A DNA stretch of 64,000 bases from Prochlorococcus sp. AG-355-P16 (GTDB lineage Bacteria > Cyanobacteriota > Cyanobacteriia > PCC-6307 > Cyanobiaceae), in NCBI GenBank assembly GCA_003278525.1, contig QCEQ01000001.1, forward strand, positions 33,934 to 97,933, given 5' to 3'. Under the pieces are notes generated by a model. The model saw only the letters and a program-made list of their open reading frames with translations. It was not told the DNA's origin and did no database searches. Every line of letters starts with the position of its first letter. The stretch's first letter is position 1. Positions 287 through 14,518 of the stretch are shown here, one piece after another. Made by a program: the position numbers and the translations under genes.

Positions 287-333
287 GTGATTGACAGTCG
301 ATCTAAACTTAGAGGGATGAACCCCTCTTTTTT
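287..333 (+). promoter_or_regulatory. Repeated dyad/-10/hairpin leader module, copy E1
   Basis: The copy reads, in order: dyad GATTGACAGTCGATC (289-303), a -10-like TAAACT, then a hairpin AGAGGG-atgaac-CCCTCT followed by a T run, with an ATG at 335 right after it. The same arrangement recurs near 2911, 3436 and 14471. Inference: the dyad is a dimeric-regulator site in the -35 region, TAAACT is the -10, and the transcript begins at or near the hairpin. A short terminator-like attenuator is an alternative reading of the hairpin plus T run. Confidence 0.5.
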
Positions 334-334
334 A

Positions 335-394
335 ATGTTTAATAGATTTATTTATGAAAAGATAATGACTCTTCTTATTTCTCTTTTCTGCTAA
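335..394 (+). CDS. Leader microORF, 19 aa
   Basis: ATG directly after the T run of module E1. It encodes 19 residues ending LLISLFC, and its TAA overlaps the ATG of the next ORF (TAATG at 392-396). The overlap suggests translational coupling, which is the main reason to take it seriously. No family recognised. It could be only a leader that loads ribosomes for the downstream microproteins. Confidence 0.35.
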   Translation: MFNRFIYEKIMTLLISLFC

Positions 395-510
395 TGAATA
401 TTTCCCCGCACCTATTAATTGATGCTGTGATATTAAGCGCTGCCCTTACGATAACTTTTGTATTAAGAGCAAAAGGTAATGCTGCAAGAGAAGAAAAAGA
501 AAATAGATGA
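394..510 (+). CDS. Small membrane microprotein, 38 aa
   Basis: Begins in a TAATG overlap with the leader ORF. A hydrophobic helix covers about residues 7-24 (LLIDAVILSAALTITFVL), followed by a charged tail (RAKGNAAREEKENR), so a single-span protein with a soluble C-terminus is likely. Its stop overlaps the next start (ATGA). Size and layout resemble the many tiny thylakoid or plasma-membrane subunits of cyanobacteria, but I cannot assign it to any complex. Confidence 0.45.
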   Translation: MNISPHLLIDAVILSAALTITFVLRAKGNAAREEKENR

Positions 511-647
511 TTATTAAAGAAGAAGAAAAAGAATTTAAAAAACCTAAATTATATAGATTTTGGAACTTTCTTTTTTATGGAAGTTCCATTGCTATTGGAG
601 TTTTCTTAGTTTATCTATATTCTGCTTATGTCTTTATAAATAAATGA
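507..647 (+). CDS. Small membrane microprotein, 46 aa
   Basis: ATGA overlap with the preceding ORF and with the next one. A charged, Lys/Glu-rich N-terminus (residues 1-17) precedes a hydrophobic span at about residues 19-43 with several aromatic residues. Likely a single-pass membrane protein with a cytoplasmic N-terminus. No family recognised. The unbroken chain of overlaps argues it is expressed from module E1. Confidence 0.45.
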   Translation: MIIKEEEKEFKKPKLYRFWNFLFYGSSIAIGVFLVYLYSAYVFINK

Positions 648-739
648 CCTACATGTACGGCATAGCGATTACTTATGGAGTTGTGAGTCTTTTATTGCTT
701 GGTGGGTTTGCATACTTTACTTTTAAAATGAAACGCTAA
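644..739 (+). CDS. Small membrane microprotein, 31 aa
   Basis: Starts in an ATGA overlap with the 46 aa ORF. Nearly the whole protein is one Tyr- and Gly-rich hydrophobic helix (about residues 5-26) ending in the positive tail KMKR, which predicts an orientation with the C-terminus in the cytoplasm. It is the last intact gene of the E1 chain. Function unknown. Confidence 0.45.
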   Translation: MTYMYGIAITYGVVSLLLLGGFAYFTFKMKR

Positions 740-744
740 TTTCT

Positions 745-908
745 ATGTCCTCTTCAATGAAAGATTTCTTAGATAAATTTTTTGATTTATGTAGAGAATA
801 TCAACAAGAAATTCCACCTCAGAAGATGAACATTTAAATCTTTTCCAATATGCAGACACGGCATCAGAAGCATGGAAAATTATCAAATCATCAAAAAAGC
901 CAGCCTAG
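745..908 (+). pseudogene. Frameshifted small gene
   Basis: ATG at 745 opens a frame (MSSSMKDFLDKFFDLCREYQ...) that stops at 837. From about position 820 an adjacent frame continues with a plausible protein (SEDEHLNLFQYADTASEAWK...) to a TAG at 906-908. The two halves join at the CCACCTCAGAAG stretch and the total span is not a multiple of three, so one indel seems to have split a gene of about 54 codons. A sequencing error or programmed frameshift cannot be excluded, but no slippery heptamer is obvious. Confidence 0.4.
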
Positions 909-948
909 AAAACTATAAGCTGACTTGATAACAAATGTAGAAGAATGA

Positions 949-1065
949 TTAATAAGTATTTGATATCTTGTTTTTCATGCTTTCAATCTTATTGATTAAT
1001 TCATCTAACCATTCTGTATTATTTTGCTCTTGTCTTTTATGGCTTTGGCTTTTTTGAGTACTCAT
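949..1065 (-). CDS. Small 'NTxWLDxLI' family protein, copy 1 (38 aa)
   Basis: Minus-strand ORF starting MSTQKSQSHK with core NNTEWLDELINKIESMKNK. Three other short ORFs in this window share the core: 1864-1971, 5042-5179 and 16978-17130. All have a variable polar N-terminus beginning MST or MSG, then N-T-x-W-L-[DE]-x-[LM]-I and an amphipathic Lys/Glu helix. Repetition of the motif on both strands is good evidence the ORF is real. Function unknown. Confidence 0.6.
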   Translation of the reverse strand: MSTQKSQSHKRQEQNNTEWLDELINKIESMKNKISNTY

Positions 1066-1285
1066 AAATTTCTTATTTTTATATTTTATTTAATATATCT
1101 TCAGAAATTAAAGGAATCAATAAGCAATATTACCAAATCGATTGATAAAACAAGCTTTAGTAGCATTTCAGACAAACCTGCCATCACAAATTAACTAAGA
1201 AAACCTAAATCTCTTTAGTTAAGTATTTTCTACGATGTTTTTATTTGAAATTCTGATTTGAATTAGTAAAGGTATAGATGTTCCT

Positions 1286-1393
1286 ATGGAAAAATCATTT
1301 CTGAATTTTATTTATTGGATCCTATTAAAGTCAGCTGAAAGTTACTACGGAGATTCATTAAAAACGGAAGTACCTTATACACCTTATTTTTAA
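1286..1393 (+). CDS. Small hypothetical protein, 35 aa
   Basis: ATG-started ORF. It has an aromatic, moderately hydrophobic first half (FLNFIYWILL) and a polar, Tyr/Pro-rich tail ending in YTPYF. It could associate with the membrane. No relative seen elsewhere in the window and no family recognised. Confidence 0.35.
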   Translation: MEKSFLNFIYWILLKSAESYYGDSLKTEVPYTPYF

Positions 1394-1696
1394 TTTTTGG
1401 GGACCTTAACTTTTAATATTAGATCTCTACTTTGAGAGTTATTAGTTTGGAATTAATTTATTAAAAAACACAATATCGGTTACTTATAGATTCACTACAA
1501 AATAATCTCTTACGTTGAATTTCTTTGACTGATTGTGAATAAATTATAGCGGTAAGAATCGTTCCAAAATTAACTAAAACTATAATTACAAGGAGTAGCT
1601 CAATTGCAAGGTTGGTCAAAAGATTACCCTACTTAAATTTATATAAAAACCTTATAACGGCAGAAAAGGTATTGAATAGAGTTTAAATTCCTATTT
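1394..1696. other. Intergenic stretch with no supported gene
   Basis: Very AT-rich. No credible ORF of more than about 30 codons was found on either strand. The only notable string is AAGGAGTAGCTCAATTGCAA near 1590-1609, whose TAGCTCAATTG matches the tRNA box A (D-arm) consensus. No anticodon arm, T arm or CCA follows, so no tRNA gene is called. Confidence 0.4.
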
Positions 1697-1861
1697 TTAG
1701 CCATCGAGATTCTTTGGTACTGGACTAGGTTCACAATTTTCGACGCATTCTTCCAAAGACTTTTCAGAATTACATTTAATTTCGCAACTACGAAGACAAT
1801 CATAGAAGGCATACTTGGGATCTAATTCATTTTTGAATTGTTTATTTCTAAATGTGTTCAT
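1697..1861 (-). CDS. Cysteine-rich small protein with twin CX3C motifs (54 aa)
   Basis: Encodes 54 aa with Cys at residues 22, 26, 30, 39 and 43, including C-LRS-C and C-VEN-C, in an acidic context followed by a Pro-rich tail. There is no signal peptide. Twin CX3C motifs are classic in small helical-hairpin proteins stabilised by disulfides or metal, but that is only an analogy. It lies 2 nt downstream of the 35 aa ORF at 1864-1971, so the two are probably cotranscribed. Confidence 0.5.
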   Translation of the reverse strand: MNTFRNKQFKNELDPKYAFYDCLRSCEIKCNSEKSLEECVENCEPSPVPKNLDG

Positions 1862-1863
1862 GA

Positions 1864-1971
1864 TCAAACTCCCTTTGATTTTTTTTCAAGTTGATTAATT
1901 AATTTATCCAACCAAAGAGTGTTATTGATCTTTTTTGTGTTTTTAAAGTATTTCGTTTTGTAAGTACTCAT
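1864..1971 (-). CDS. Small 'NTxWLDxLI' family protein, copy 2 (35 aa)
   Basis: Minus-strand ORF starting MSTYKTKYFK with core NNTLWLDKLINQLEKK. It is a clear relative of the ORFs at 949-1065, 5042-5179 and 16978-17130. Basic overall. It lies immediately upstream of the Cys-rich 54 aa ORF with 2 nt between them, suggesting a two-gene transcript. Function unknown. Confidence 0.6.
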   Translation of the reverse strand: MSTYKTKYFKNTKKINNTLWLDKLINQLEKKSKGV

Positions 1972-2161
1972 GAAGTGAAACCTCCAATCAGTGGATCTAA
2001 TTTAAAGGTGATGATTCAAATTTCCTAGAGCAAAAATACTGATTATGAATTTAGTGAAATATTTTAAAAACGATTAATTTATAGTTTGTATTTTAGGTAT
2101 TAAAACTCTTGATTTTTTTAAATAACTAATACTAAATAACTTCTAAAAAAGGGGGTTAATT

Positions 2162-2332
2162 ATGACTTACGGAAATCTAATTAAAAATAAAATTCAATAT
2201 ATATTTGGTGGTTTGTTTGATACGTTATTAATTAGGAGAAAACTAACTGATACTCAAATGGAATGTATGCAATTCGGAATTTGTAATTATGCTCCAAGAC
2301 AAGTTGAGGAAGTTCCCTTTTTTCATTTTTAA
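2162..2332 (+). CDS. Hypothetical protein, 56 aa
   Basis: ATG-started ORF preceded by the purine/G-rich stretch AAAAAAGGGGGTTAATT, a possible ribosome site. The protein is basic in the first half and contains two Cys (residues 35 and 41) spaced CMQFGIC, with a Phe-rich C-terminus. No membrane segment or family recognised. Confidence 0.45.
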   Translation: MTYGNLIKNKIQYIFGGLFDTLLIRRKLTDTQMECMQFGICNYAPRQVEEVPFFHF

Positions 2333-2359
2333 TTTGAATTTATTTTAAACGTAGAGCAA

Positions 2360-2674
2360 TTAGCTCCTCCTCACCCAATCAGGAGATCCACTAAACCAAT
2401 CAGCAAGATCATCATTTTTGGGATCGAAATGATTTTCAGTTTCTAGACCATCAAGGCCAAGATTCTGGATAAGTCCATTTATTCCATCTGATTTTTGCTT
2501 GCCATATCTCCTTAAGCTATTAGCTTTCTTAAGCCATGTCCATATAGTTGAATTATGTTTTGCAAACTTTTCTACATAAATTCTTTCTTCCAATGCAACA
2601 GGTTCATCTAGTGAAATCCTTTTTACAATATCCTTGATTTTTAAACGAGTCTTGTTGGTTAGGAACATATTCAT
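2360..2674 (-). CDS. Hypothetical soluble protein, 104 aa
   Basis: Starts MNMFLTNKTR and is predicted helical and charged, with Trp-rich patches (IWTWLKKAN near residues 44-52 and WFSGSPDWVRRS at the C-terminus). It has no signal peptide or transmembrane segment. It is convergent with the 56 aa ORF ending at 2332. The composition would suit a small nucleic-acid or protein-binding role, but I recognise no domain. Confidence 0.6.
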   Translation of the reverse strand: MNMFLTNKTRLKIKDIVKRISLDEPVALEERIYVEKFAKHNSTIWTWLKKANSLRRYGKQKSDGINGLIQNLGLDGLETENHFDPKNDDLADWFSGSPDWVRRS

Positions 2675-2910
2675 AAAAGAAGTTAATGTTTTATAAAAGT
2701 TTTTTTTATGAATGTCTTGTCAATCTTTATTTCAAGAAAAAGTATTTTTTAGTGGCTTTTCAAGGACAAATATATTTATTTAACAACAGGTATATTGAAT
2801 TGGTAAAAAAGACTACTTAATTCGATTTATATAACTTATATAAAAACGACTTCTATATAAGTTTCTCTACAAAATTTTAGATTTAATTTATAAAATTGAA
2901 TAAGGAAAAT
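2675..2910. other. Intergenic, AT-rich, no supported gene
   Basis: About 235 nt between the divergent genes at 2360-2674 and 2958-3218. I see only short ORFs of under 20 codons and AT-rich promoter-like sequence. Its right end runs into the second copy of the repeated leader module. Confidence 0.4.
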
Positions 2911-2957
2911 TTACATTGACAATCAATCTAAAATAAGAGGAAATATGCTCCTTTTTT
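2911..2957 (+). promoter_or_regulatory. Repeated dyad/-10/hairpin leader module, copy E2
   Basis: The most diverged copy. It has dyad ATTGACAATCAAT, a -10-like TAAAAT, then the stem AGAGGA-aatatgc-TCCTTT with a T run that ends directly at the ATG of the gene at 2958. The dyad and the hairpin stem both remain self-complementary although bases differ from E1, as expected if symmetry rather than exact sequence is selected. Confidence 0.45.
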
Positions 2958-3218
2958 ATGAATACCTTAATAGTCTCTACTTTTGATTGTCTTTTTGAAG
3001 ATTTCGATAGATTTGTAGCTGATTTCCACGAAAAAGAGGGATATAAATATGTCGAAGAATATGAACTCATCAAGGTAAATGACCATAAAAGTCACTTAAT
3101 ACTTAAAGTTAAAGATTTAGAAGGATTTGCTGCGGCTACAAGTACTCCAGAGATGAAAGAGTGGGATCAAGAAAATGGTTATAAAGACATTTGTTATTCA
3201 CTAACTCCAGTAGAATAA
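2958..3218 (+). CDS. Hypothetical alpha/beta protein, 86 aa
   Basis: ATG immediately after module E2. The 86 aa sequence alternates strand- and helix-like segments: LIVSTFDC, then DFDRFVADFHE, HLILKVKD, and FAAATSTPEMKEW. That layout suits a small ferredoxin-like or dimeric alpha/beta fold. The ORF at 10400-10705 has a similar layout and may be a distant relative. It may belong to a cyanobacterial DUF family (DUF3764 is my best guess), but this is unverified. The stop overlaps the start of the next gene (TAATGA). Confidence 0.6.
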   Translation: MNTLIVSTFDCLFEDFDRFVADFHEKEGYKYVEEYELIKVNDHKSHLILKVKDLEGFAAATSTPEMKEWDQENGYKDICYSLTPVE

Positions 3219-3400
3219 TGAGTACTAAATGGGATGACACTTCTTGGCAGAAAGACTTCTTGAACATGAAGTCACATTCTCCCTCAGATGCAAAACTCCT
3301 AATGGGAGGTGTAAAAGGATTGAAAGATGCTTGGCGTCTAGGTGTTCTGCATGTTGAATACGAAAAACTAAAGAAGATTCAAAATCAACAGCAACAATAA
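3218..3400 (+). CDS. Hypothetical protein, 60 aa, Gln-rich tail
   Basis: I take the ATG at 3218, which overlaps the upstream stop by one base, rather than the earlier in-frame start at 3191. The protein is polar with two Trp near the N-terminus (WDDTSWQKDF) and ends in a Gln run (NQQQQ). The 48 aa ORF at 19228-19374 has the same kind of C-terminus. It appears co-transcribed with the 86 aa gene from module E2. Function unknown. Confidence 0.55.
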   Translation: MSTKWDDTSWQKDFLNMKSHSPSDAKLLMGGVKGLKDAWRLGVLHVEYEKLKKIQNQQQQ

Positions 3401-3435
3401 GTTCTATAAAAATAGGTAAAGATTTAGGATAATTT

Positions 3436-3483
3436 GTGATTGACAGTCGGTCTAAACTTAAACGGATAAAACCCTCTTTTTTA
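3436..3483 (+). promoter_or_regulatory. Repeated dyad/-10/hairpin leader module, copy E3
   Basis: Nearly identical to E1 over its left half: GATTGACAGTCGGTC dyad and TAAACT. The hairpin is weaker here (ACGGATAAAACCCTC followed by a T run). An ATG at 3485 opens only a 19-codon ORF, which reads over the start of the 45 aa ORF at 3520. That resembles E1, where a tiny leader ORF also precedes a membrane microprotein. Confidence 0.5.
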
Positions 3484-3519
3484 GATGAGAAACAAATTTA
3501 AAAGATCAGCTTTTTTGAT

Positions 3520-3657
3520 ATGTCAGATGACCTTTTCTATCTAATATCATTAATAGGATTTTTAGTTGTTTTTAGCTCAATGGTATTTTTCCTAACGAAA
3601 TATAGAGAAAAAAAAGTTAATAATATAAGCCAGATTTCCATAACTGAACAAATTTAA
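3520..3657 (+). CDS. Small membrane protein, 45 aa
   Basis: ATG-started ORF inside and beyond a short leader ORF that follows module E3. A single hydrophobic helix at about residues 5-25 (LFYLISLIGFLVVFSSMVFFL) is followed by a basic patch (KYREKK) and a polar tail, predicting an inner- or thylakoid-membrane microprotein. It lies 14 nt upstream of the larger membrane gene at 3672, with which it probably forms an operon. Confidence 0.5.
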   Translation: MSDDLFYLISLIGFLVVFSSMVFFLTKYREKKVNNISQISITEQI

Positions 3658-3671
3658 TTTTTAGAGCAGTA

Positions 3672-4028
3672 ATGCAAAGATTTATAATTTCACCGTTATT
3701 TGCTTTATCGAGGTTTTTTATAAATATTTACGGAATATTTTTAAAGTTTTTTCTTCAATTAAATGGTGGTTATTGGTCAAGAATTGGTTTAGCCGAAAAT
3801 ATTACAGAGGAAAGAATAAAAAAAAGAAGATTTTATATCCTGCCTTTTTATATTCTTCTAGCTTTATTGTTTGGATTAGTATCTGCTCTATATTGGTATT
3901 TTGTTATTCTCCATGTGCCACTTACAATAGAAAGATATTTAAGTCCATTAAATAACAATATTGCTTTAATAATTGCTTCTGCTACTTTCTTTGGTTGGCT
4001 TTATATTCTTTATAAAACAAACAAATAA
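3672..4028 (+). CDS. Multi-span membrane protein, 118 aa
   Basis: Contains about three hydrophobic segments: residues 5-30 (partly amphipathic), 56-80 (ILPFYILLALLFGLVSALYWYFV) and 96-114. They are separated by a polar basic loop (RIGLAENITEERIKKRRF). It ends KTNK. There is no signal peptidase site, so an integral membrane protein is likely. No transporter or enzyme motif recognised. It is followed by a structured non-coding stretch that could be its 3' region. Confidence 0.55.
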   Translation: MQRFIISPLFALSRFFINIYGIFLKFFLQLNGGYWSRIGLAENITEERIKKRRFYILPFYILLALLFGLVSALYWYFVILHVPLTIERYLSPLNNNIALIIASATFFGWLYILYKTNK

Positions 4029-4044
4029 AATGCTTACTGAGAGA

Positions 4045-4445
4045 GGATGTGGTCCGCGGATTAAAGATTTAATTAATCATGATTAAATCATTCTTAAGGA
4101 TTCATGCCAAATATTTATGACCGATTACTTTGTATATACGACAGTTCTGGTGATCGACTCGTCCAAGGTTGACCAACTAGATCTTCACTAATCCATGGTC
4201 TGCAACACCAAGGTAAATTAACTTATCTAACCTTTACGGTAAGAAAGTTAAGTGATCAGAAATTAATCTTTAGGGATTAATTCTGAACTATCTTAAAATT
4301 AAAGTCGTTTGTAAAGCATGAAGAAGTGAGTAATCACTTTTACATCCAAAACTTATTTCTAAGAAAATTCTTAATCTGATTATTAAATAGATCTCCTTTC
4401 TGTCGTCACCATTTAAAAAAGACCTGTAAAAGGGTCTTTTTTTTT
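4045..4445 (+). ncRNA. Structured non-coding stretch, candidate RNA gene ending in a terminator
   Basis: About 400 nt without a credible ORF but rich in short perfect hairpins: GATTTAAT/ATTAAATC (4066-4089), CAGAA(A)TTAATC/GATTAATTCTG (4257-4285) and AAGTGA-gtaa-TCACTT (4324-4339). The stretch ends in the strong terminator at 4417-4445. It also contains the palindrome TCCGCGGA. It matches none of tmRNA, 6S, RNase P or SRP RNA that I can recognise. It could be an independent sRNA or a long 3' UTR of the membrane gene. Confidence 0.4.
4417..4445 (+). terminator. Rho-independent terminator
   Basis: Stem AAAAGACC (4417-4424) and GGTCTTTT (4433-4440) with loop TGTAAAAG, running into nine consecutive T. 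It would end a plus-strand transcript crossing the structured stretch. The A-rich left flank means it could also work weakly in reverse for the small minus-strand genes at 4520-4814. Confidence 0.7.
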
Positions 4446-4519
4446 ATGTCTTAAATTTTATTTATTTACTGTTAATCCACAAATAATTAAATATTTTTAT
4501 CTCGCTCTTTCACGATCAG

Positions 4520-4627
4520 TTAATACTTTTTCAAAAGTAAAAAAGAAAGTACAGATGCTATCCAATGCAACCAACAAAAAACTACTGATCTTCCATGTTG
4601 ATTTAATTGAAGTGATCTGCGAGTCAT
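4520..4627 (-). CDS. Small hypothetical protein, 35 aa
   Basis: Minus-strand ORF with a basic N-terminus (MTRRSLQLNQHGRS) and a hydrophobic C-terminal helix rich in aromatic residues (VVFCWLHWIASVLSFLLL) ending KKY. Likely a tail-anchored or single-pass microprotein. It starts 4 nt after the 60 aa ORF at 4632-4814, so they are probably one transcript. Confidence 0.4.
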   Translation of the reverse strand: MTRRSLQLNQHGRSVVFCWLHWIASVLSFLLLKKY

Positions 4628-4631
4628 ACTT

Positions 4632-4814
4632 TTAATAATCTTCATTGTAATCGGATGGACTACCAGTTAAAGAACAAACAACTGATTCCTCTTTTTTCAT
4701 TTCTTTTATTTCCATTATTGGTCTGCCCATTTTCTTAAGAACATCTATATCTTCTTTAGTCTGACAGCGAGCAATTATGTTTCCTTTTTGATCAAAGCAA
4801 CTGTAGTAAGTCAT
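4632..4814 (-). CDS. Hypothetical protein, 60 aa
   Basis: Begins MTYYSCFDQKGNIIARCQTKED. The first half looks like a compact beta-hairpin (FDQKGNIIARC), then a helix (EDIDVLKKMG), followed by a charged linker and an acidic Ser/Tyr-rich tail. No membrane segment. It has the look of the short conserved hypothetical proteins common in marine picocyanobacteria, but I cannot name a family. Likely cotranscribed with the 35 aa ORF downstream. Confidence 0.55.
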   Translation of the reverse strand: MTYYSCFDQKGNIIARCQTKEDIDVLKKMGRPIMEIKEMKKEESVVCSLTGSPSDYNEDY

Positions 4815-4914
4815 TTTACTAAATGCAATTTAAAGTTCATAGTTGATTTTAGTTGCAGCAACGCAACCGACTTATGACAACCATTTTTCTAGTTTAGGTC
4901 AGCCATAGATTTAA

Positions 4915-4989
4915 ATGGCTAAAAAAACATACCTCTTTCCGTACCTAAATGTTCCTCAAACCGCACACATTAGATACGCAGTGTTTTAG
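4915..4989 (+). CDS. Possible microORF, 24 aa
   Basis: ATG-started ORF reading MAKKTYLFPYLNVPQTAHIR... to a TAG at 4987-4989. Only its regular composition supports it, and no ribosome site or relative is evident. It lies just upstream of the NTxWLD-family gene at 5042 and might simply be leader sequence. Confidence 0.2.
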   Translation: MAKKTYLFPYLNVPQTAHIRYAVF

Positions 4990-5041
4990 TCAAATCAATT
5001 AGAACAAAGAGGTAGTTAAACGAATATACAAAGGAGAATTT

Positions 5042-5179
5042 ATGAGTGGAGATTTTGAGACTCTTGAAATTAATCAACCAAAAATTAAATATTTAAAACC
5101 AGAAGACAATACAGAATGGTTAGACAAATTAATTAATAATATTGAGGACATGAAGAACAAGTTATCAAAAGATTCTTAA
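5042..5179 (+). CDS. Small 'NTxWLDxLI' family protein, copy 3 (45 aa)
   Basis: ATG follows a clear AAAGGAGAA ribosome site at about 5031-5039. N-terminus MSGDFETLEINQPKIKY closely matches the copy at 16978-17130 (MSGDYETLEINQPKISY), and the core is NTEWLDKLINNIED. The shared N-terminus shows that copies 3 and 4 are closer to each other than to copies 1 and 2. Soluble, charged, helical. Function unknown. Confidence 0.65.
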   Translation: MSGDFETLEINQPKIKYLKPEDNTEWLDKLINNIEDMKNKLSKDS

Positions 5180-5314
5180 AATTTAAGAAAAAAACTTTTT
5201 TATTTGATCTTTAGTTTGAATGAGAAGCAATTCAAAAAAGAATTTAAACTTTGTATTTAAGGTAACCGCTTTTTTGTGAGCATTATTCAGAATAAGAGTC
5301 CGACTATTTTTTTT

Positions 5315-5458: not shown

Positions 5459-5576
5459 TTTAAAAAAAATTTTTTACTTTTGATTAATTAAATCTCTCCA
5501 TAAGCAAGCCATCAAATAAAAGAAAGAAAGACTTGAAAAGGTGGGGAGAAAAAAAGAATGGGTCAATTTTCTATAA

Positions 5577-5681: not shown

Positions 5682-5685
5682 AATT

Positions 5686-6236: not shown

Positions 6237-6314
6237 TTTTTATTGAATATTTATTTAAATAAATGAGATTTTCTTTACTATCACTTGAATTTTAATAAGT
6301 TAATATCTTTTAAT

Positions 6315-7498: not shown

Positions 7499-9583
7499 AT
7501 GAAAAGAAAACTCTTTTCTGCGATATTAACAGGCACGATGCTAGTAGCTCCTGCCAGTACTCTTGCAGAAACAAAACGTATTGGTGAGACCAGAGCTCTA
7601 ATCCCTGAAGCAGGTCTTGCTTTGAACCCTGTCCTGGATGGTAGTAACGGAAACGTTAACTTCCCATATGGAAACTTTAAAGCACTCGCTACTGTTGGCG
7701 AAGTAGGAGACAACGGACTTGCACTGACTGGATATCCAGATGGACAGGCAGCATATCTGCTTGATAACGATACTATTCGAGTTGTTTATCAGTCCGAATC
7801 TTATGCGACCATGGGTAAAGCACCAGTCCCTGAGACTTATAACTGGGTTATGAAAAATGGTGTAACTTTCAGTGGTTCTCACATTCACACGATTGATTAT
7901 GATCGTGCAAAATTTGCTAAATTCATGCGAAATGGTTCTTCTGCAGAAGGAATGGTCAAGGACTCTGGTAAATTATTCAACACAATCTACAACGTATTTG
8001 GTGATGAAGTAACGAAGGAGAATTTAGTCTGGGGTAATCAAGCACTTCCCAGTCAACGCATTGTTCCTTTCCTAGATAAATACAAACTTTCTGAAGCCGA
8101 CTTCTTCCTACAGTCCTTTTGTGGTGCATGGTATGAACAAGCAAATAAATATGGTAATGGCATAGGGCTTGAGGATGATGTATGGTTTACTGCTGAAGAG
8201 TGGGAAATCGGTCGTATGTTCACTGGCTCTAAAAAGACTGGTAGAACAGAATCTGATAAAACGATGGGTCTTGCATCAATAGCTGTTGATGTTAAGAACG
8301 AAGTTGCCTACACTGCACCTGCTTTAGGTCAGACTGGTTATGAAAAACTCATGCCAATCAACCCTCAACACAAAGACTATGTTGTTATTGTTGGTGCTGG
8401 TTATAATCACAATCAAGAACCAGCTCCTCTTAAGGTTTATGTCGGCATGAAGGATCGTCTTCCTGATGGTTCTGAGATTGATTACTCTACTGCTAATGAG
8501 CGCGATGCCTTCCTTGGACGAAATGGTTTGCTCTACGGTCGCATCTACGGATTTGCAATGCCTACAAAATCTTATGCTGCACTAGGTCTTGAAGCAAATC
8601 CTGCCGCAAAGATGATGGATGAGTATTTGCAGAATGCTGATGCGCCTAACTCCTTTGAGGGTCGTTTCTATCCTACTTCCTATCAATGGGGTGGCTGGGA
8701 TAATCCAGTCGCAGTAAACAATACTGAGATGATGTTGTGGGAGCAAGCAGATGAACAACCTGAGGGTTACACCTTCTTTAACGGAGATTCAAAAGCCGAA
8801 CACCCTGCAGTAGATCCTGATATCAACCGTACTCGTTATGTTCAGAACATGACTAACAAAGGAGGGATTCTTGGTTTCGATTTTGGTTTCATTGGAGCCA
8901 CTCTAGACGCTGCTGATGGTGATCTCCCTGAATTCCTTCCTGCTACTGGTATTCGTGTTGTTCCTGCCATTGATGGAGCTCTTGTTCTTAAGACTGGTGG
9001 TGAAGGTGTTGTGAAGGATGGCTCTGCCGCAATTCATGTTGAGAAAAATAAGGCAGCAATGGTTGCTCCAGATGGACTTTATTGGACTAAACACGCTGAT
9101 GGTTCTTTCCTTATCGTTGATGAGGATTCTGGAAACGACTTTGGAGAGCGTAAGTATGTACTTCCCATCAAAGAGTCAGATATGACTTTAAGTGAACCGA
9201 ACACTGGCTACCTATTAGGTCTTGCTGGTGGTAAGCACTCTTCACGTTACGAAGCAGGTGTATCTGCTCTTGGTGGTGCATTTTCCAAAGCAACTACTTC
9301 CGAGTTCTCTGGTTCTTGGAACGTAACTGCTCTGACAGCTAAGAAGTCAAATGGTTTATTCGGAAGCAAATTCTACTCTATGGATGAACTTGCAGGAACT
9401 GGTGAACAAGAGATCATTCAGGGTATTGACACTGACGATCAACTCTTCATCGGTGTTGTTCAAGCCCGTGGTGAATCAGGTGGTGCGGTTGCTGCAGAAG
9501 GTGGTGATGCTGGTGGACAAGTTTTCCAATTCACTTTCAACTTGCCTGAAGAACCAGAGGAAAAGAAAATTGCTAAGTTCTGA
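7499..9583 (+). CDS. Secreted PhoX-like (DUF839-type) phosphatase candidate, 694 aa
   Basis: Residues 1-23 are a signal peptide (basic MKRK, hydrophobic core, cleavage after TLA). The rest is a large, acidic, Gly/Asp-rich protein with many beta-strand-like units. Segments such as GNGIGLEDDVWFTAEEWE (about 219-236) and APLKVYVGMKDRLPDG resemble PhoX-type calcium-dependent alkaline phosphatase propellers. That assignment is from memory of the family and not certain; another secreted beta-propeller is the main alternative. Base use is clearly richer in G and C than its neighbours (many GGT, CGT, TTC and AAC codons), consistent with transfer or strong selection for expression. A Crp-family regulator follows, as in known Prochlorococcus phosphate-stress clusters. 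Confidence 0.5.
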   Translation: MKRKLFSAILTGTMLVAPASTLAETKRIGETRALIPEAGLALNPVLDGSNGNVNFPYGNFKALATVGEVGDNGLALTGYPDGQAAYLLDNDTIRVVYQSESYATMGKAPVPETYNWVMKNGVTFSGSHIHTIDYDRAKFAKFMRNGSSAEGMVKDSGKLFNTIYNVFGDEVTKENLVWGNQALPSQRIVPFLDKYKLSEADFFLQSFCGAWYEQANKYGNGIGLEDDVWFTAEEWEIGRMFTGSKKTGRTESDKTMGLASIAVDVKNEVAYTAPALGQTGYEKLMPINPQHKDYVVIVGAGYNHNQEPAPLKVYVGMKDRLPDGSEIDYSTANERDAFLGRNGLLYGRIYGFAMPTKSYAALGLEANPAAKMMDEYLQNADAPNSFEGRFYPTSYQWGGWDNPVAVNNTEMMLWEQADEQPEGYTFFNGDSKAEHPAVDPDINRTRYVQNMTNKGGILGFDFGFIGATLDAADGDLPEFLPATGIRVVPAIDGALVLKTGGEGVVKDGSAAIHVEKNKAAMVAPDGLYWTKHADGSFLIVDEDSGNDFGERKYVLPIKESDMTLSEPNTGYLLGLAGGKHSSRYEAGVSALGGAFSKATTSEFSGSWNVTALTAKKSNGLFGSKFYSMDELAGTGEQEIIQGIDTDDQLFIGVVQARGESGGAVAAEGGDAGGQVFQFTFNLPEEPEEKKIAKF

Positions 9584-9626
9584 TTTTAAAACTAAAGTAA
9601 GCAATTAAAAATTGCAAGTTTATGAG

Positions 9627-9666
9627 ACCTATAAACTCATTAATACAATGAGTTTATAGGTTTTTT
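9627..9666 (+). terminator. Strong rho-independent terminator
   Basis: A perfect 15 bp stem, ACCTATAAACTCATT (9627-9641) with AATGAGTTTATAGGT (9647-9661), loop AATAC, followed by six T. It lies about 45 nt after the PhoX-like stop codon and should end that transcript. Confidence 0.9.
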
Positions 9667-9810
9667 ATATTTTAGAAAAAGAGTTGAAATTCTGATTTAT
9701 TTATTTTGAGTTAGTCAATTTTTAATCAGATTTGACCAGGGAATTAAATAATTTTTAATTTATTTTTAACTTTATAAATTTATCGTAAATGCATTTTAAG
9801 AAATAAAAAT

Positions 9811-10347
9811 ATGATAATTCCTGAAAAGCAAAATATAGAATTTAAAGAAAATACAATTCTAGAAGTCAAATCAGGAATATTAATAATGCAATCAAAAATC
9901 AAGAATAAGAAAAATATTGTTGGGATAATAAATGAAAATGTTGTAATAAATTTGGAATTATGTAACTACGAAAATATTAAATTAATTGCGTTGACAAATT
10001 GCGAAATTAAAACAATTAAAAGAGGGCTATTTTTTTCATCTACAGACTTATTAACAAAAAGTCTAAAAAGAATTGATCAATTGGAAAAACTTTTATTAAT
10101 AAGTAATATAAAAAAATCAGAAGAAAAACTAAAAGAATTTCTTTTATACTTATCTTCAATTATTGGCTTAAAAAAAGATAAACATATTTATCTAAATTTA
10201 AAAGAATTTAATTTTACCCATAAAATTATTGGTAATTCAATTTCTTCAACAAGAGTAACCGTAACAAGAAATTTAAAAATACTAGAAAAAAAAGGTTGGC
10301 TCAAATTTGAAAAAAAAGGTATTTTAATTCCGTTTAAAGATAATTAA
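9811..10347 (+). CDS. Short Crp/Fnr-family transcription regulator, 178 aa
   Basis: The C-terminal residues about 130-175 form a winged helix-turn-helix of Crp type: FTHKIIGNSISSTRVTVTRN, then LKILEKKGWLKFEKKGILI. The N-terminal ~95 residues look like a degenerate cyclic-nucleotide-binding beta-roll without a clear phosphate-binding cassette, joined by a long dimerisation helix. At 178 aa it is shorter than Crp or NtcA (about 220). Known Prochlorococcus phosphate-stress regulators such as PtrA are of this family, so with the PhoX-like neighbour a role in phosphate response is plausible but inferred. Confidence 0.75.
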   Translation: MIIPEKQNIEFKENTILEVKSGILIMQSKIKNKKNIVGIINENVVINLELCNYENIKLIALTNCEIKTIKRGLFFSSTDLLTKSLKRIDQLEKLLLISNIKKSEEKLKEFLLYLSSIIGLKKDKHIYLNLKEFNFTHKIIGNSISSTRVTVTRNLKILEKKGWLKFEKKGILIPFKDN

Positions 10348-10399
10348 CCAAGCCTTAATAAAATAGATTTATTTTATATATACAAACAATATCTTTATT

Positions 10400-10705
10400 A
10401 TGTCTTGTTCTATAACATCTGTTTTTACTTTTAGAATTGAAAGCACTTTCGATGAATGGGCAGCAATATTTGATAGTGCAGAAGCAGATAAAAGGCATTC
10501 AGAATTTGATATTAAGCCACTTTTTAGAGGAGTAAGTAAGAAAGATCCTCAAAAAGTTATTGTTATTCATCAAGCTCCAGAAGGTAATGTTCAAAAGTTT
10601 GTAGAAGCTAATGGAGACTGGATGGCAACTCATAGAGTTGACTTATCAACAATGGAAGAATCATCTTGGACTTCTTCAGCAACAACGGAGAATTGTTGTG
10701 ATTAA
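10400..10705 (+). CDS. Small alpha/beta protein, 101 aa (DUF3764-like?)
   Basis: Segments alternate as in a ferredoxin-like fold: ITSVFTFRI, then FDEWAAIFDSAEADKR, IKPLFRGVSK, KVIVIHQAPE, and FVEANGDWMATHRVDL. A polar Ser/Thr tail ends in CCD. It has no signal peptide and resembles small dimeric cyanobacterial proteins of unknown function; DUF3764 is a tentative guess. It shares its layout with the 86 aa ORF at 2958-3218. It lies 3 nt before the lipoprotein gene at 10709, so probably one transcript. Confidence 0.65.
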   Translation: MSCSITSVFTFRIESTFDEWAAIFDSAEADKRHSEFDIKPLFRGVSKKDPQKVIVIHQAPEGNVQKFVEANGDWMATHRVDLSTMEESSWTSSATTENCCD

Positions 10706-10708
10706 GAA

Positions 10709-10957
10709 ATGAAAAGACTACTATTCCCACTACTAGCTCTCTCCACTATTTTCGTTGCGAGTTGTTCTAATAACTCAAACAAAATAGATACTCAAAAGAT
10801 TTCTGAAACCCAAAAGCAGAGAGAAATTTGTCTCAATTGGTATGGCTACAGAATTGATACCAATAAAGCAATTAATGATTTAAATCTAAAAATTGAAACC
10901 GAATCAGAATTAATGGCTTACTGTGATTTCTTTAAGAATGTAGCTGATACGAAATAG
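10709..10957 (+). CDS. Small lipoprotein, 82 aa
   Basis: N-terminus MKRLLFPLLALSTIFVASC has a canonical lipobox (VASC), so the mature protein starts at Cys19. The rest is polar and helical with further Cys in REICLNWYGYR and MAYCDFF, spaced to allow an intramolecular disulfide. Predicted periplasmic and membrane-anchored. It follows the 101 aa gene by 3 nt. Function unknown. Confidence 0.65.
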   Translation: MKRLLFPLLALSTIFVASCSNNSNKIDTQKISETQKQREICLNWYGYRIDTNKAINDLNLKIETESELMAYCDFFKNVADTK

Positions 10958-10973
10958 ATTTTTACAAAAGAAT

Positions 10974-11144
10974 TTATTTTTTGGTATCTTGCGATCTCAT
11001 TTCTTTTTGTGCTTCCCTAATTCTTTCTTCAAAGACTGATCTTCTATATGGAGTAACTTCTCCATTTTTAGTTGCCAAGATTTGGGCTTCATAAAGCCTC
11101 TTGGCTCTTGTAATTTTTTCTCTTATTTGAGAGAGCTCATTCAT
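10974..11144 (-). CDS. Small charged helical protein, 56 aa
   Basis: Minus-strand ORF starting MNELSQIREKITRAKRLYEA, strongly helical and rich in Arg, Lys and Glu, ending MRSQDTKK. A central NGEVTPYRRS turn separates two amphipathic helices, suggesting a small helical hairpin. No signal or membrane segment. Regular composition and ATG start support it. Function unknown. Confidence 0.5.
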   Translation of the reverse strand: MNELSQIREKITRAKRLYEAQILATKNGEVTPYRRSVFEERIREAQKEMRSQDTKK

Positions 11145-11159
11145 GATCTTATGCAGTTA

Positions 11160-11185
11160 ATGAGAATCCCGTTCCCTATTCTCAT
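11160..11185. promoter_or_regulatory. Perfect 8 bp inverted repeat
   Basis: ATGAGAAT-cccgttccct-ATTCTCAT, upstream of the 56 aa minus-strand gene. No T run follows, so an operator or RNA hairpin is likelier than a terminator. Confidence 0.35.
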
Positions 11186-11296
11186 ATCATGCGTCCAAAT
11201 AAATTGGATGAACGTAAAAGTAAGCTAACATTAAAAAAAGAAGTTCGGATTTAAGATATATTTAAAAAATCTTTAAAAGTAGTTTTTAATAAAATT

Positions 11297-11551
11297 TTAA
11301 ATAGAAATTTTATCTAGAGGTAAAATATTCTGGGCATCAATTGAGTCCAAATGAATTTCATTCTCTGTATCTTTATACAATCTTCTAGATTGTGGTGATT
11401 TAAGGGCGTTATTGTAATTTTCAATAAATTCCGAATCATCCAAAATAGATTTATTTTCTCTTTTAAAACTTTCTTTATAAGAATATTTGATATGCCCTAT
11501 TTCTTGGGATTGATTTGAGTTTTTGGGAGAAGGTGAATTTTTTTTTAACAT
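11297..11551 (-). CDS. Hypothetical polar protein, 84 aa
   Basis: Starts MLKKNSPSPKNSNQSQEIGH. The low-complexity Ser/Asn/Lys-rich N-terminus is probably disordered, followed by a charged helical region with PQSRRLYKDTENE and an Asp/Ile-rich end. No membrane segment, Cys cluster or recognisable domain. The preceding AT-rich gap (11552-11768) holds no other supported gene. Confidence 0.45.
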   Translation of the reverse strand: MLKKNSPSPKNSNQSQEIGHIKYSYKESFKRENKSILDDSEFIENYNNALKSPQSRRLYKDTENEIHLDSIDAQNILPLDKISI

Positions 11552-11768
11552 TTATTATTTTTTTTATATGATTGTCTTCAATATTCAAGGCGATAAAATA
11601 TAAAAGACTAGTTTAACCTAAGATTATTGGATTAAGAAGTTATTAAGTAAAAAATAAATTTGTTTAAAAAATTTCTAAATTTCTAAATTAAATATTTTTT
11701 CTAATAGTCAAAAGTTTATTTAATAAGAATTTAATTAAAAGTTAACAATAGAGACCTATGAGATAAAT

Positions 11769-11921
11769 ATGAACAAAAATCAACTTATTAACTTCATTAC
11801 ATTTTCAATTCTTGAAAGTAAAAGAGTTGAAGACAGATTATGTAGAAAAGAAATTTATAGCTATCTTACCCAACTAAATAAAAGACAATTAAAAGCAATT
11901 ACAAGTGAATTTATCATTTAA
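11769..11921 (+). CDS. Small helical protein, 50 aa (paralog of 6081-6236)
   Basis: Begins MNKNQLINFITFSILESKR and ends LNKRQLKAITSEFII, matching the plan of the ORF at 6081-6236. It stops 7 nt before the ATG of the repeat-containing lipoprotein at 11929, so the two are probably cotranscribed. Amphipathic helix, no transmembrane segment. Function unknown. Confidence 0.55.
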   Translation: MNKNQLINFITFSILESKRVEDRLCRKEIYSYLTQLNKRQLKAITSEFII

Positions 11922-11928
11922 AAAAAAT

Positions 11929-12351
11929 ATGAAAAAGCTTCTGGTTGTATTTGTTCTTATTCTTACTTCTTGCAGTACAAAAGATGAATTATCCATTACC
12001 CAAGATGAATTATCCATTACCCAAGATGAATTATCCATTACAAAAGATGAAATTTCGATCACGAAAGGTGAATCATCCATTACTGATGAAAAAAAATTAT
12101 TTTATGTAACTAAAGAAACTGCTGTTCGTCTTTGTGGAGGTAAATCCAGAATAATTGAAAGTGAAAATGAAGAAATCATCAAAATAGAAGTCAAAGATTT
12201 TTCAAATGTTGAAAAAGAAAAATTTGTTCAATTTACTCTCGTTGAGACAGATAGAAAAGGTGGTAAATATAGAATTGTTAATTGTTATCCAAATAAAGAT
12301 CCTAAAAAATCGGTAATTAAAACAATCAAGACTAATTACAAATTAAATTAG
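11929..12351 (+). CDS. Lipoprotein with five heptapeptide repeats (140 aa)
   Basis: I choose the ATG at 11929 over the GTG at 11905 because it gives a clean lipoprotein signal, MKKLLVVFVLILTSC (lipobox LTSC). Right after the Cys come five 7-residue repeats of type DELSITQ (positions 11983-12087), then a domain nearly identical in pattern to the lipoprotein at 6925-7248 (CGGKSRIIE, VNCYPN, IKTIKTNYKLN). The repeats are absent from the paralog and probably form a flexible spacer between lipid anchor and domain. Confidence 0.7.
   Translation: MKKLLVVFVLILTSCSTKDELSITQDELSITQDELSITKDEISITKGESSITDEKKLFYVTKETAVRLCGGKSRIIESENEEIIKIEVKDFSNVEKEKFVQFTLVETDRKGGKYRIVNCYPNKDPKKSVIKTIKTNYKLN
11983..12087 (+). 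repeat. Five tandem 21 bp in-frame repeats
   Basis: Units at 11983, 12004, 12025, 12046 and 12067. The first two are identical, the third differs only near its end, and the last two are diverged. The gradient suggests recent slippage expansion at the 5' side. Confidence 0.9.
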
Positions 12352-12371
12352 TCTTAGGTCAACTAGATAAA

Positions 12372-12725
12372 ATGAAAATATTTAAATTTCTATTTGTAAT
12401 TCCTGTAATAACTTTAATAATTATTTTTCAAACCTCTTTGCAAAATAGATATCTAATGGCTTCTGAAATTAGAGATGGAGAAACAATTTTTAGAAATGTT
12501 TGTACAGGCTGCCATGTAAGAGGTGGATCAGTTGTTCTTAAAGGATCCAAATCATTAAAACTTTCCGACCTTGAAAAAAGAGGAATTTCAGATGAGAAAT
12601 CAATAGCAAAAATAGCTAATGAGGGGATAGGTTATATGAAGGGTTATAAAAATAAATTAAAGGATGGAGAGGATAAGGTTCTTGCACAATGGATTATTCA
12701 AAATGCAGAAAAGGGTTGGGAGTAA
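12372..12725 (+). CDS. Cytochrome c6-like small c-type cytochrome, 117 aa
   Basis: Residues about 4-22 are a hydrophobic signal/anchor. The mature part has one haem-binding motif CTGCH (about residues 44-48) and a candidate axial Met in GYMKGYKNKL. GGSVVLKGSKSLKLSDLEKRG and the C-terminal helix VLAQWIIQNAEKGW are typical of class I/c6-like cytochromes. It would carry electrons in the thylakoid lumen or periplasm after covalent haem attachment (ccdA/ccsB genes lie at 50.2-52.1 kb). The exact partner is unknown, and it is divergent from housekeeping PetJ sequences as I remember them. Confidence 0.75.
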   Translation: MKIFKFLFVIPVITLIIIFQTSLQNRYLMASEIRDGETIFRNVCTGCHVRGGSVVLKGSKSLKLSDLEKRGISDEKSIAKIANEGIGYMKGYKNKLKDGEDKVLAQWIIQNAEKGWE

Positions 12726-13094
12726 ATGAAAAGTGTACTTCTTGCATCGTTTTTATTTCTATTAGCTGAATTCTCTTTTGCTGAGGAATTAACTAATTAC
12801 ACAATTACATCTGATTCTCAAGTTAATACTTTAGAAGGAGATTTAGAGGCTAAGGGAAATGTAGTCATTAAGAGTAATAGTAGTAATTTTGAGGCTTATT
12901 CTGACAAGCTTTCTTTTGACAAGGATGATAAATCTCTAAAACTTATTGGTAATGTATATGTTAAAAATTTAGAGTCTGAAGGAATTTCAATTGAAGAAAC
13001 GTCTGGAGATGAGTTGACCATATTTACTGATACAGGAATTTTTGAATTCAAATCTCAAAATAAAAACAGAGTAACAACAAAAATTAAATTCTAA
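12726..13094 (+). CDS. LptA/OstA-like periplasmic protein, 122 aa
   Basis: The ATG follows the cytochrome stop directly, indicating an operon. Residues 1-19 are a signal peptide (cleavage after SFA). The mature part shows the repeating beta pattern of the LptA/OstA jelly-roll: GDLEAKGNVVIKS, then FEAYSDKLSFDKDDKSLKL and IGNVYVKN. LptA-type proteins bridge lipopolysaccharide transport across the periplasm. It is shorter than typical LptA (about 170 aa), so it may be a truncated or accessory member. Confidence 0.65.
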   Translation: MKSVLLASFLFLLAEFSFAEELTNYTITSDSQVNTLEGDLEAKGNVVIKSNSSNFEAYSDKLSFDKDDKSLKLIGNVYVKNLESEGISIEETSGDELTIFTDTGIFEFKSQNKNRVTTKIKF

Positions 13095-13205
13095 ATAAAG
13101 GCTTGCTTTTAAAAAAAAATTTGTATTAAAAGGAAATTTTAAATGAGATTTAAAGCTGCTTTAATCTAGATAATCTAAAAGGAAATAGTAGAAATAATTA
13201 TTATT

Positions 13206-13370
13206 ATGCATCCAAGCAAAGTAATAACTGATCCAAGAATTAATGACACTTATTATGATCCAGATTTAGATAAGCTTTATCAATACGTTAAACTTGGAGA
13301 TTATCCTCCAGAATGGATTGATACAACTCCATATAAAGAGGATGATTTTTTTTCTTCATTCGGATACTAA
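13206..13370 (+). CDS. Small acidic hypothetical protein, 54 aa
   Basis: Starts MHPSKVITDPRINDTYYDPD and is rich in Asp, Tyr and Pro, with LYQYVKLGDYPPEWIDTTPY in the second half and a Phe/Ser tail. No signal or membrane segment. It ends 5 nt before the TTG start of the amidohydrolase gene and is probably in the same transcript. Function unknown. Confidence 0.5.
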   Translation: MHPSKVITDPRINDTYYDPDLDKLYQYVKLGDYPPEWIDTTPYKEDDFFSSFGY

Positions 13371-13375
13371 AGCAA

Positions 13376-14332
13376 TTGTATATCAATACTTTTTCAAACC
13401 TTAAAAGGTTATTCAAAATTGGGATATTTACTGCCCTTTTATCCACCTTTAAAGTCTATTGTTATGAAGGCCCGCTTTTTGATGCAATGGCCCAATTAGA
13501 TGAAAGACCAGGATTTGAAAAATCCATTTCTAGAGTGAGAGATGCTGGAATTTATAAGATTGCTCTTTTTGCCAGAAGTAGAAAATACTTAGGTGAAAAT
13601 GAAAAAGCATTACTCAATTTGCATAGAGACAACAAAGATTTAATAGTGCTTGGTGCACCAAAGTATTTTTTGCATGAAAATGACATTGGTAAATCCTTCA
13701 CAAAGCGAACTTTGAAAAATATTGATAAATATAAATATTCTTTTGTAGGAGAAATCTTATTCACTCATGCAGATAAGACTCATGGTAGACAGCATGAATC
13801 AGGAGAAACATATTTAGACCCATCAGGAAAAGGGTTTACTGACTTTTTAGTGAAGTTTTCTTCAAAGAATATTCCTGTTATGACACATTGGGAGTTTTAT
13901 GATTGGGAAAGAGACTGGCCTAAATTTTCTAAACTTTTCCTTGATTTCCCAAATCAAAAATTCATAATACCTCATATGGGTTTTGGGAGTCCAAAACAGG
14001 TTAGATTAATCCTTTCAACTCATGACAATGTATATATGACAATATCGAAAAAAAGTAGAGATAAAGGAAACATCTCTGATCCTATTAAACAATCTAAATT
14101 TGGATCTGGATTTTTAAATTATAAAAAGCAATTAAAAGATGAATGGAAAAAAATCTTAATCGAGTATCAAAATAAATTGTTATTTGCCACTGATGCGCAT
14201 AAAAAGCACCGTTGGAAAAAATATTCAAAAACAGTGAAGTTATATCGTGATATTTTAAATCAATTACCTGAAGAAGTTTCTAAAAAGATTGCTTACTTAA
14301 ATGCTGAAAGGATTTATGACATAAAAAATTAG
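13376..14332 (+). CDS. Secreted amidohydrolase-family (metal-dependent TIM-barrel) protein, 318 aa
   Basis: TTG start placed 5 nt after the upstream ORF. The N-terminus has a basic stretch and a hydrophobic segment (IGIFTALLSTFKVYCY) that looks like a signal. Motifs in order fit the Amidohydro_2/TatD-like superfamily: FDAMAQLDE at the first strand, PVMTHWEFYDWERDW, FIIPHMGFG with its conserved His, and LLFATDAH with the late Asp. Substrate cannot be inferred. Being exported and next to a polysaccharide lyase, it may act on extracellular or periplasmic carbohydrate-derived compounds. Confidence 0.65.
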   Translation: MYINTFSNLKRLFKIGIFTALLSTFKVYCYEGPLFDAMAQLDERPGFEKSISRVRDAGIYKIALFARSRKYLGENEKALLNLHRDNKDLIVLGAPKYFLHENDIGKSFTKRTLKNIDKYKYSFVGEILFTHADKTHGRQHESGETYLDPSGKGFTDFLVKFSSKNIPVMTHWEFYDWERDWPKFSKLFLDFPNQKFIIPHMGFGSPKQVRLILSTHDNVYMTISKKSRDKGNISDPIKQSKFGSGFLNYKKQLKDEWKKILIEYQNKLLFATDAHKKHRWKKYSKTVKLYRDILNQLPEEVSKKIAYLNAERIYDIKN

Positions 14333-14373
14333 AGAATTAAAAAAAGATTTAAATACTAGTAAACGTTTTTGGG

Positions 14374-14460
14374 ATGGCTGATAAGAAAAAGAAAAAGAAA
14401 TGCAAAAAGAAAAAATGTTCAAACTGGAAAGGGGGTAAATGTATTTGTTATGGCCAATAG
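14374..14460 (+). CDS. Lys/Cys-rich microprotein, 28 aa
   Basis: Reads MADKKKKKKCKKKKC, then SNWKGGKCICYGQ. It has four Cys (residues 10, 15, 23 and 25) and about twelve Lys among 28 residues. It lies on a different frame inside the over-extended polysaccharide lyase ORF, which supports a later start for that gene. It could be metal- or nucleic-acid-binding. Module E4 follows 10 nt after its stop. Confidence 0.5.
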   Translation: MADKKKKKKCKKKKCSNWKGGKCICYGQ

Positions 14461-14470
14461 ACTAGATACG

Positions 14471-14518
14471 GTGATTGAAAGTCGATATAAAATTGGAGAG
14501 ATAAAACCCTCTCTTTTT
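14471..14518 (+). promoter_or_regulatory. Repeated dyad/-10/hairpin leader module, copy E4
   Basis: GATTGAAAGTCGATA, -10-like TATAAA (the best match of the four to TATAAT), then stem GAGAG-ataaaacc-CTCTC and a T run ending at the GTG start of the polysaccharide lyase. In this copy the downstream start codon is well supported by a signal peptide, so the module clearly serves as the gene's 5' leader. Confidence 0.55.

Follow-up and report, generated by a model that had tools for sequence, protein, structure and literature searches.

A mobile promoter-like module with a hairpin at its predicted start site, located at the joints between small gene cassettes of high-light Prochlorococcus

The DNA stretch analysed here (the window) covers 64,000 nucleotides (nt) of Prochlorococcus sp. 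AG-355-P16 (contig QCEQ01000001.1, positions 33,934 to 97,933) and contains four copies of a short repeated module. The module is about 44 bp long and consists, in order, of a 13–15 bp imperfect dyad (ATTGACAGTCGAT), a −10 box (TANNNT), a 5–7 bp hairpin, a T run and a start codon. It marks places where genes have been cut and re-joined, and acts as a shuffling joint. We consider it probable that the module as a whole is a self-contained promoter with its start region wrapped in a terminator, forming the joint between small gene cassettes in the islands of high-light Prochlorococcus.

In the 64-kb window, a weight matrix finds the module at 287–333, 2911–2957, 3436–3483 and 14471–14518 only, with scores of 36.2, 24.3, 30.6 and 27.5, respectively; the next match in the window scores 8.7, and the reversed-sequence control reaches at most 2.4. 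The 13-mer core, with one mismatch at most, occurs nine times in the genome to which the window belongs and not at all in its reversed control. For a wider survey, the 20-mer ATTGACARTCRATNTARAAT was searched with at most one mismatch in a sample of 400 genomes of the family, 67 from the same genus and 333 from other genera; copy counts across genomes come from such pattern searches. The 20-mer is present in 67 of the 67 own-genus (high-light Prochlorococcus) genomes, mostly in 4–12 copies per genome, and in 2 of the 333 others. Its reversal is found in none of the own-genus genomes and once in a single other genome. Both the 20-mer and the weight matrix set the copies almost fully apart from the controls. 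A preliminary description of this DNA had spoken of a four-copy portable promoter/leader module, to be given up if absent outside the window and lacking covariation. All four copies are where it had placed them, and the module extends beyond that view, being genus-wide, mobile and located at recombination joints. We take genomes G152, G117, G365, G095, G270 and G245 of the sample to be strains MED4, MIT9312, MIT9215, MIT9301, MIT9515 and AS9601, respectively; for MED4, this is backed by the fit of published RNA coordinates. MED4 has 13 copies, 11 of which have a neighbouring copy within 10 kb (the random mean is 1.7), and the copy clusters lie in or beside regions assigned to islands 1 and 5 (PMC2518516).

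The shuffling was seen on comparing 202 distinct copies by their upstream 60 bp and their downstream gene. Among these pairs, which are not independent, 159 share the upstream flank and have another gene, 150 share the gene and have another flank, and 35 share both. The class of the hairpin (two classes occur, described below) tracks the downstream gene (61 of 68; reached by none of 2000 shuffles) more strictly than the upstream flank (39 of 49; reached by 6 of 2000); therefore, most crossovers, but not all, should fall in the dyad half. In a genome of another genus, a complete class I module stands ahead of a gene for a protein of 389 amino acids (aa) (L010, G162:C1:314185), likely a transfer out of the high-light clade.

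Judged by their gene content and sequence, the IMG/VR contigs L101 and L103 are T4-like phage contigs that appear to be joined to host island DNA exactly at module edges. L101 contains three modules. Over 691 bp it is 98.6% identical to host locus L058, and this match stops at the last T ahead of the ATG; beyond this junction lie uvsX, a DnaB-type helicase gene and mazG. L103 has one module directly after phoH, and its identity to host locus L066 (97.3% over 563 bp) runs from the first base of the dyad. An accidental join made in assembly would be expected to miss the exact edges of a module, unless the phage itself had a module at that site. In L084, taken from an 85-kb contig that is probably of phage origin, a module adjoins a host-like gene; two proteins were tested and have no PHROG match. 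L087 looks like a satellite-like element with tyrosine recombinase-like genes, as far as its reading frames indicate. Cultured cyanophages gave no match to DUF3764 or to a 41-aa protein, both found behind modules in host genomes.

The anatomy was derived from 133 distinct copies, numbered from the first A of the dyad as position 0. The dyad has the consensus ATTGAC-A-GTCGAT, followed by C, and its symmetry is imperfect (T2 opposes G10). At positions 14–19, the −10 box has its first T and the A in 133 of 133 copies and its last T in 130 of 133, absolute counts that are inflated by the seed pattern (two mismatches at most) with which the copies were selected. In sequence terms, TANNNT with a free middle is the usual −10 signature. 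Upstream of the dyad there is weak A/T richness and a conserved TG. The upstream flanks contain no conserved −35 box; TTGACA is present but lies inside the dyad, only 7 bp from the −10 box.

The hairpin is of class I (AAGGGGC-AATTA-GCTCCTT) or class II (AGAGGG-ATAAAA-CCCTCT), with the T run and then the start codon following either. The commonest class I form includes a G–T pair, which is stable in RNA and asymmetric in DNA. Counting as intact those hairpins that have a T run and a fold of −4 kcal/mol or lower (83 copies), the median of the full hairpins is −8.9 kcal/mol, and genome-wide the start codon follows the T run by 0–2 nt in 68 of the 83. The mean fold over all copies is −5.4 kcal/mol, against −1.6 for shuffled sequences. 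A G+C-rich stem directly followed by at least five Ts, as in an intrinsic terminator, is present in 83 copies, and the class II string also occurs without the dyad as an ordinary terminator-type sequence in a phage contig (L173) and in host genomes (L207, L214). At one locus (L066, 3223–3281; G276:C7), two head-to-head modules form one palindrome of about 58 bp with a single common hairpin.

In the window (Table 1), the four −10 boxes share one TANNNT register, 14 nt past the first A of the dyad. The TATAAA named for copy 4 in the preliminary description is out of register. A start codon 0–2 nt after the T run, also noted there, is found at all four copies; the hairpin that it had seen in each is intact in three and broken at 3436. 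The dyad of the copy at 2911 had been thought to stay complementary where bases differ, but one dyad match is gained and another lost, so symmetry is not restored by compensation.

The start of transcription was calibrated on twelve MED4 RNAs with 5' ends mapped by rapid amplification of cDNA ends (PMC2518516, Table 1). In the MED4 sequence, the gap between TANNNT and +1 is 6 nt at ten of these twelve ends, 5 at one and 4 at one. Applied to the module, this gap places +1 at position 26 or 27, which is the first base of the loop, and transcription is predicted to start inside the hairpin. As expected of a sigma-70-type promoter, TANNNT stands at the distance of the mapped MED4 promoters. The predicted leader has a median length of 18 nt and folds with about 0 kcal/mol (0.0, compared with the median of the full hairpin given above). 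With the start predicted in the loop, the RNA that the gene makes from its own module should be missing the 5' arm; the complete terminator could arise only in transcripts that read through from upstream. This argues against the earlier idea that the hairpin attenuates the gene, or that the start codon is exposed when it opens. That the start codon is preceded by a U-rich tract is in keeping with the pyrimidine-rich, S1-type initiation considered for MED4 (PMC5607370). Yfr11 of MED4 was considered as a module product and rejected, as it ends upstream of the copy at 358571.

As to the hairpin, of 155 copies 104 follow a stop codon in the same orientation at a distance of at most 150 bp, and for about 47 of these the distance is no more than 14 bp. 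We infer a terminator or insulator role, and put it no more firmly because selection on class I pairing is not demonstrated and there is no association with co-directional genes. When the 3' arms of the 58 class I hairpins are re-dealt, pairing is 324 observed against 324.5 shuffled, i.e. there is no stem covariation. In class II covariation is weak (207 against 200.2, with 38 of 5000 shuffles reaching 207). The proposal that the stem stays complementary where bases differ, implying selection on symmetry, is therefore not generally supported, since re-dealing the class I arms does not lower their pairing.

Several observations weigh against a self-contained promoter with a terminator around its start, exchanged between islands and phages. 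Stem pairing in class I is not maintained by compensatory change. The orientation of the upstream gene shows no association with an intact hairpin (56 of 101 co-directional against 26 of 54 other copies, Fisher p = 0.40), although an insulator would lead one to expect it. Two recurrent copies, before the pseudouridine synthase gene and before the MSNKFY gene, keep the dyad and the −10 box and not the hairpin. The position of the start derives from other MED4 promoters, and no regulator of the dyad was found. The phage evidence consists of three metagenome contigs (L101, L103 and L084) and the satellite-like L087, and the cultured phages of the phage collection contain no module with either hairpin class.

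The first of the alternatives is the attenuating leader of the preliminary description, in which transcription would begin before the dyad is reached; hairpin and T run would then be part of the leader and would terminate transcription or mask the start codon until a signal opens them. The placement of hairpin and T run exactly before the start codon is in its favour, as is the terminator-like nature of the class II string elsewhere. It is nevertheless unlikely: the only conserved −10 box lies between the dyad and the hairpin and the start, as calibrated on other MED4 promoters, is in the loop, while the upstream flanks are mostly unrelated among copies and have no promoter box in common. Attenuator and riboswitch leaders do share with the module a terminator-like hairpin just ahead of the start codon, but neither an aptamer nor an alternative antiterminator pairing was seen, and the covariation that would accompany a conserved alternative structure is the one described above, none in class I and weak in class II. 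A riboswitch or other known RNA family was rejected, as Rfam gives no family at the module copies and, elsewhere in the window, only a Glutamine-II riboswitch (11160–11217, minus strand) and an ATPC RNA motif (47255–47345, minus strand), both at gathering score and both indicating picocyanobacteria. The overlap with the predicted start, and the conservation of sequence rather than pairing in class I, would also suit a palindrome bound as DNA by a second protein that sits over the start site, with no RNA structure involved. That two unrelated hairpin sequences occupy the same place, each followed by a T run, and that the commonest class I form has its RNA-stable, DNA-asymmetric G–T pair, makes this very improbable.

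Re-joining at the module is sharp, the hairpin class stays with the downstream gene, which puts crossovers mostly in the dyad half, and the head-to-head double copy at L066 (3223/3281) is palindromic. These features might be expected if the dyad were primarily the site of a dedicated site-specific recombinase, an integron- or transposon-like joint with the promoter as a passenger. We give this little credence. MED4 has 13 copies but a single match to the tyrosine recombinase family PF00589, at 495 kb and away from the module clusters (serine recombinases and transposases were not searched), and short-homology recombination accounts for the same pattern. Besides, junctions occur at either module edge (at the 3' end in L101 and the 5' end in L103), so there is no fixed crossover point. 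Integron cassettes with attC resemble the module in forming arrays of small genes with a short common element at the re-joining points; apart from the lack of a fixed crossover point and of a PF00589 enzyme near the MED4 clusters, the module differs in carrying a promoter and preceding each gene. A small selfish repeat, akin to a miniature inverted-repeat transposable element and landing before genes by chance, would explain why there are many near-identical copies, some of them before gene remnants or convergent genes. Such chance landing is hard to reconcile with an orientation and start-codon distance that are fixed in most copies (the 68 of 83 mentioned above), or with the fact that several strains retain dyad and −10 box ahead of the pseudouridine synthase gene and the MSNKFY gene. 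Neither terminal repeats nor target duplications came to light, though no systematic search for them was made. We regard this alternative as highly unlikely.

Judged by analogy, the closest known things to the module are the promoter-early stem-loop (PeSL) elements, reportedly described by Arbiol et al. in 2010 as mobile regulatory cassettes of T4-type phages such as RB49 and proposed to be shuffling joints. In RB49 spacers that we take to be PeSL elements (for example 2773–2840, 3139–3205, 36927–36982, 38160–38217, 39070–39134 and 42292–42363), promoter and hairpin overlap, the −10 box being placed in or at the loop, and RB49's own transcript should therefore also lack the 5' arm. Both kinds of element fuse a promoter and a stem-loop into one short sequence between small genes. 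The hairpin of the module adjoins its −10 box, the start being predicted in the loop, and shuffling at gene borders is seen as well. However, PeSL elements have a −35 TTGACA at a distance of about 17 bp from their −10 box, which itself lies in the loop, whereas the module has the dyad in place of the −35 box, its −10 box precedes the 5' arm, and its start is predicted in the loop. The T run of the module reaches up to the start codon, and there is no Shine-Dalgarno sequence. The module resides mainly in bacterial islands rather than in a phage genome, although the two contigs with T4-type genes (L101 and L103) carry it. Since a −35 box at standard spacing, a defining feature, is absent, the −10 box alone being present, we regard the module as a PeSL-like variant and not as a member. 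A search of the available literature found no paper that names the repeat. Coleman et al. are said to have reported, in 2006, a repeat of about 48 bp in Prochlorococcus genomic islands; its length and island location would fit the module, and no promoter/terminator anatomy, shuffling analysis or phage link was reportedly given. If it is the same sequence, the repeat has been seen already, and the new parts are the anatomy, the behaviour as a joint and the phage link.

In each high-light genome checked, about ten different, mostly small and unrelated genes carry the module. The products have a median length of 86 aa, with 24 of 69 being of 50 aa or less. They include DUF3764, DUF3303 and DUF3804 proteins, the family of window gene 2958, short membrane proteins, signal-peptide proteins, peptides of 19 and 41 aa, the polysaccharide lyase of the window and pseudouridine synthase. 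The earlier characterisation as "tiny and secreted genes" is roughly right in view of these sizes, but many others are ordinary small DUF3764, DUF3303 or DUF3804 proteins or pseudouridine synthase. Most high-light strains tested have the dyad and −10 box before the pseudouridine synthase gene (L152–L160), MIT9312 being an exception; so does one genome of another genus, but not the three others with a match. MIT9312 and the other genera have a different promoter there. This distribution of the dyad across strains and genera suggests that the module probably replaced an older promoter. The modules at MED4 347625 (L148), L029 and L077 appear to be directed into the 3' end of a convergently oriented gene, like leftovers of re-joining, and may make antisense RNA.

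Table 1. Module copies in the window and the reading frames behind them.
Feature	Position	Strand	Remarks
Copy 1 dyad ATTGACAGTCGAT, putative operator	290–302	+	identical to the dyad portion of the 20-mer found across the genus
Copy 1 −10 box TAAACT (TANNNT)	304–309	+	
Copy 1 class II hairpin AGAGGG/CCCTCT and T run	311–333	+	fold −9.3 kcal/mol
Copy 1 predicted transcription start, at loop	near 316–318	+	calibration on mapped MED4 5' ends
19-aa open reading frame MFNRFIYEKIMTLLISLFC	335–394	+	conserved behind the module in other strains, including MED4
Copy 2 dyad ATTGACAATCAAT	2915–2927	+	
Copy 2 −10 box TAAAAT	2929–2934	+	
Copy 2 weak hairpin (class I family) and T run	2935–2957	+	fold −5.1 kcal/mol
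86-aa protein MNTLIVSTFDC...	2958–3218	+	no Pfam or NCBIfam match
Copy 3 dyad ATTGACAGTCGGT	3439–3451	+	
Copy 3 −10 box TAAACT	3453–3458	+	
Copy 3 decayed hairpin region with T run	3459–3482	+	fold −0.2 kcal/mol
19-aa open reading frame, apparent frame-shifted start of a 57–62 aa membrane protein	3485–3544	+	intact in L019 and L050; out-of-frame continuation 3520–3657
Copy 4 dyad ATTGAAAGTCGAT	14474–14486	+	
Copy 4 −10 box TAAAAT	14488–14493	+	
Copy 4 class II hairpin and T run	14495–14518	+	fold −7.1 kcal/mol
349-aa secreted-looking protein, GTG start directly after T run	14519–15568	+	polysaccharide lyase PF14099, E = 4.1e-13

In other strains, genes for the family of the 86-aa protein (copy 2) are found after modules of either hairpin class. 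At 3485–3657, the membrane-protein gene is apparently frame-shifted with respect to L019 and L050, next to the decayed hairpin of copy 3; either the cassette is decaying or the sequence contains an error. No module precedes the DUF3764 gene at 10400, and therefore this family occurs with or without it. Directly upstream, at 9811–10347, a Crp/Fnr-type regulator with distant PtrA similarity (E = 1e-14, far below the family cut-off) is encoded. Just before this regulator (7499–9583) lies the gene for a 694-aa secreted-looking protein without Pfam match, possibly a Psip1-type phosphatase (PMC11098088).

In the mechanism that we propose, RNA polymerase would use the TANNNT −10 box, for which the sequence evidence is strong. 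The dyad, at about −26 to −14, would replace the normal −35 and spacer region and would most likely be the site of one shared regulator, rather a repressor or a spacer-binding regulator than a classical activator. A phage-encoded MarR was rejected for this role, as the paper describing it gives no matching site. Dimers of the CRP family need a wider half-site spacing than the dyad offers, and the CRP/PtrA-type regulator of the window is not proposed for this reason. Starting in the loop, as the calibration suggests, transcription would give a leader of about 18 nt that ends in the U-rich tract and the start codon; with no Shine-Dalgarno sequence, the U tract would probably serve S1-type initiation. 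From the geometry, RNA coming from the upstream gene would carry both arms and the T run and could terminate just before the start codon, and the hairpin would be inactive on the module's own transcript. As every cassette begins with nearly identical 44 bp, recombination between modules would swap genes, each keeping its promoter and terminator; the shuffling pattern is observed, the enzyme is not. T4-like cyanophages appear to carry some of the cassettes and would be a plausible vehicle. Tentatively, and as a possibility that we hold to be less probable than its opposite, one lineage-specific regulator would read the dyads of about ten scattered genes, the 44 bp would be the exchange point between islands and T4-like cyanophages, and the start-site terminator would silence newly joined genes except from their own promoter.

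The module leaves a tangible record of genes passing between host islands and T4-like phages, and would be a test case for a promoter that is not switchable by read-through, its own start being predicted inside the terminator that would stop this read-through. If the proposed reading is true, a joint that supplies promoter, terminator and homology together would explain how Prochlorococcus islands swap tiny genes and yet keep them expressed. The genes behind it, most of them unknown, would then make up a regulon in a photosynthetic organism that is among the most abundant.

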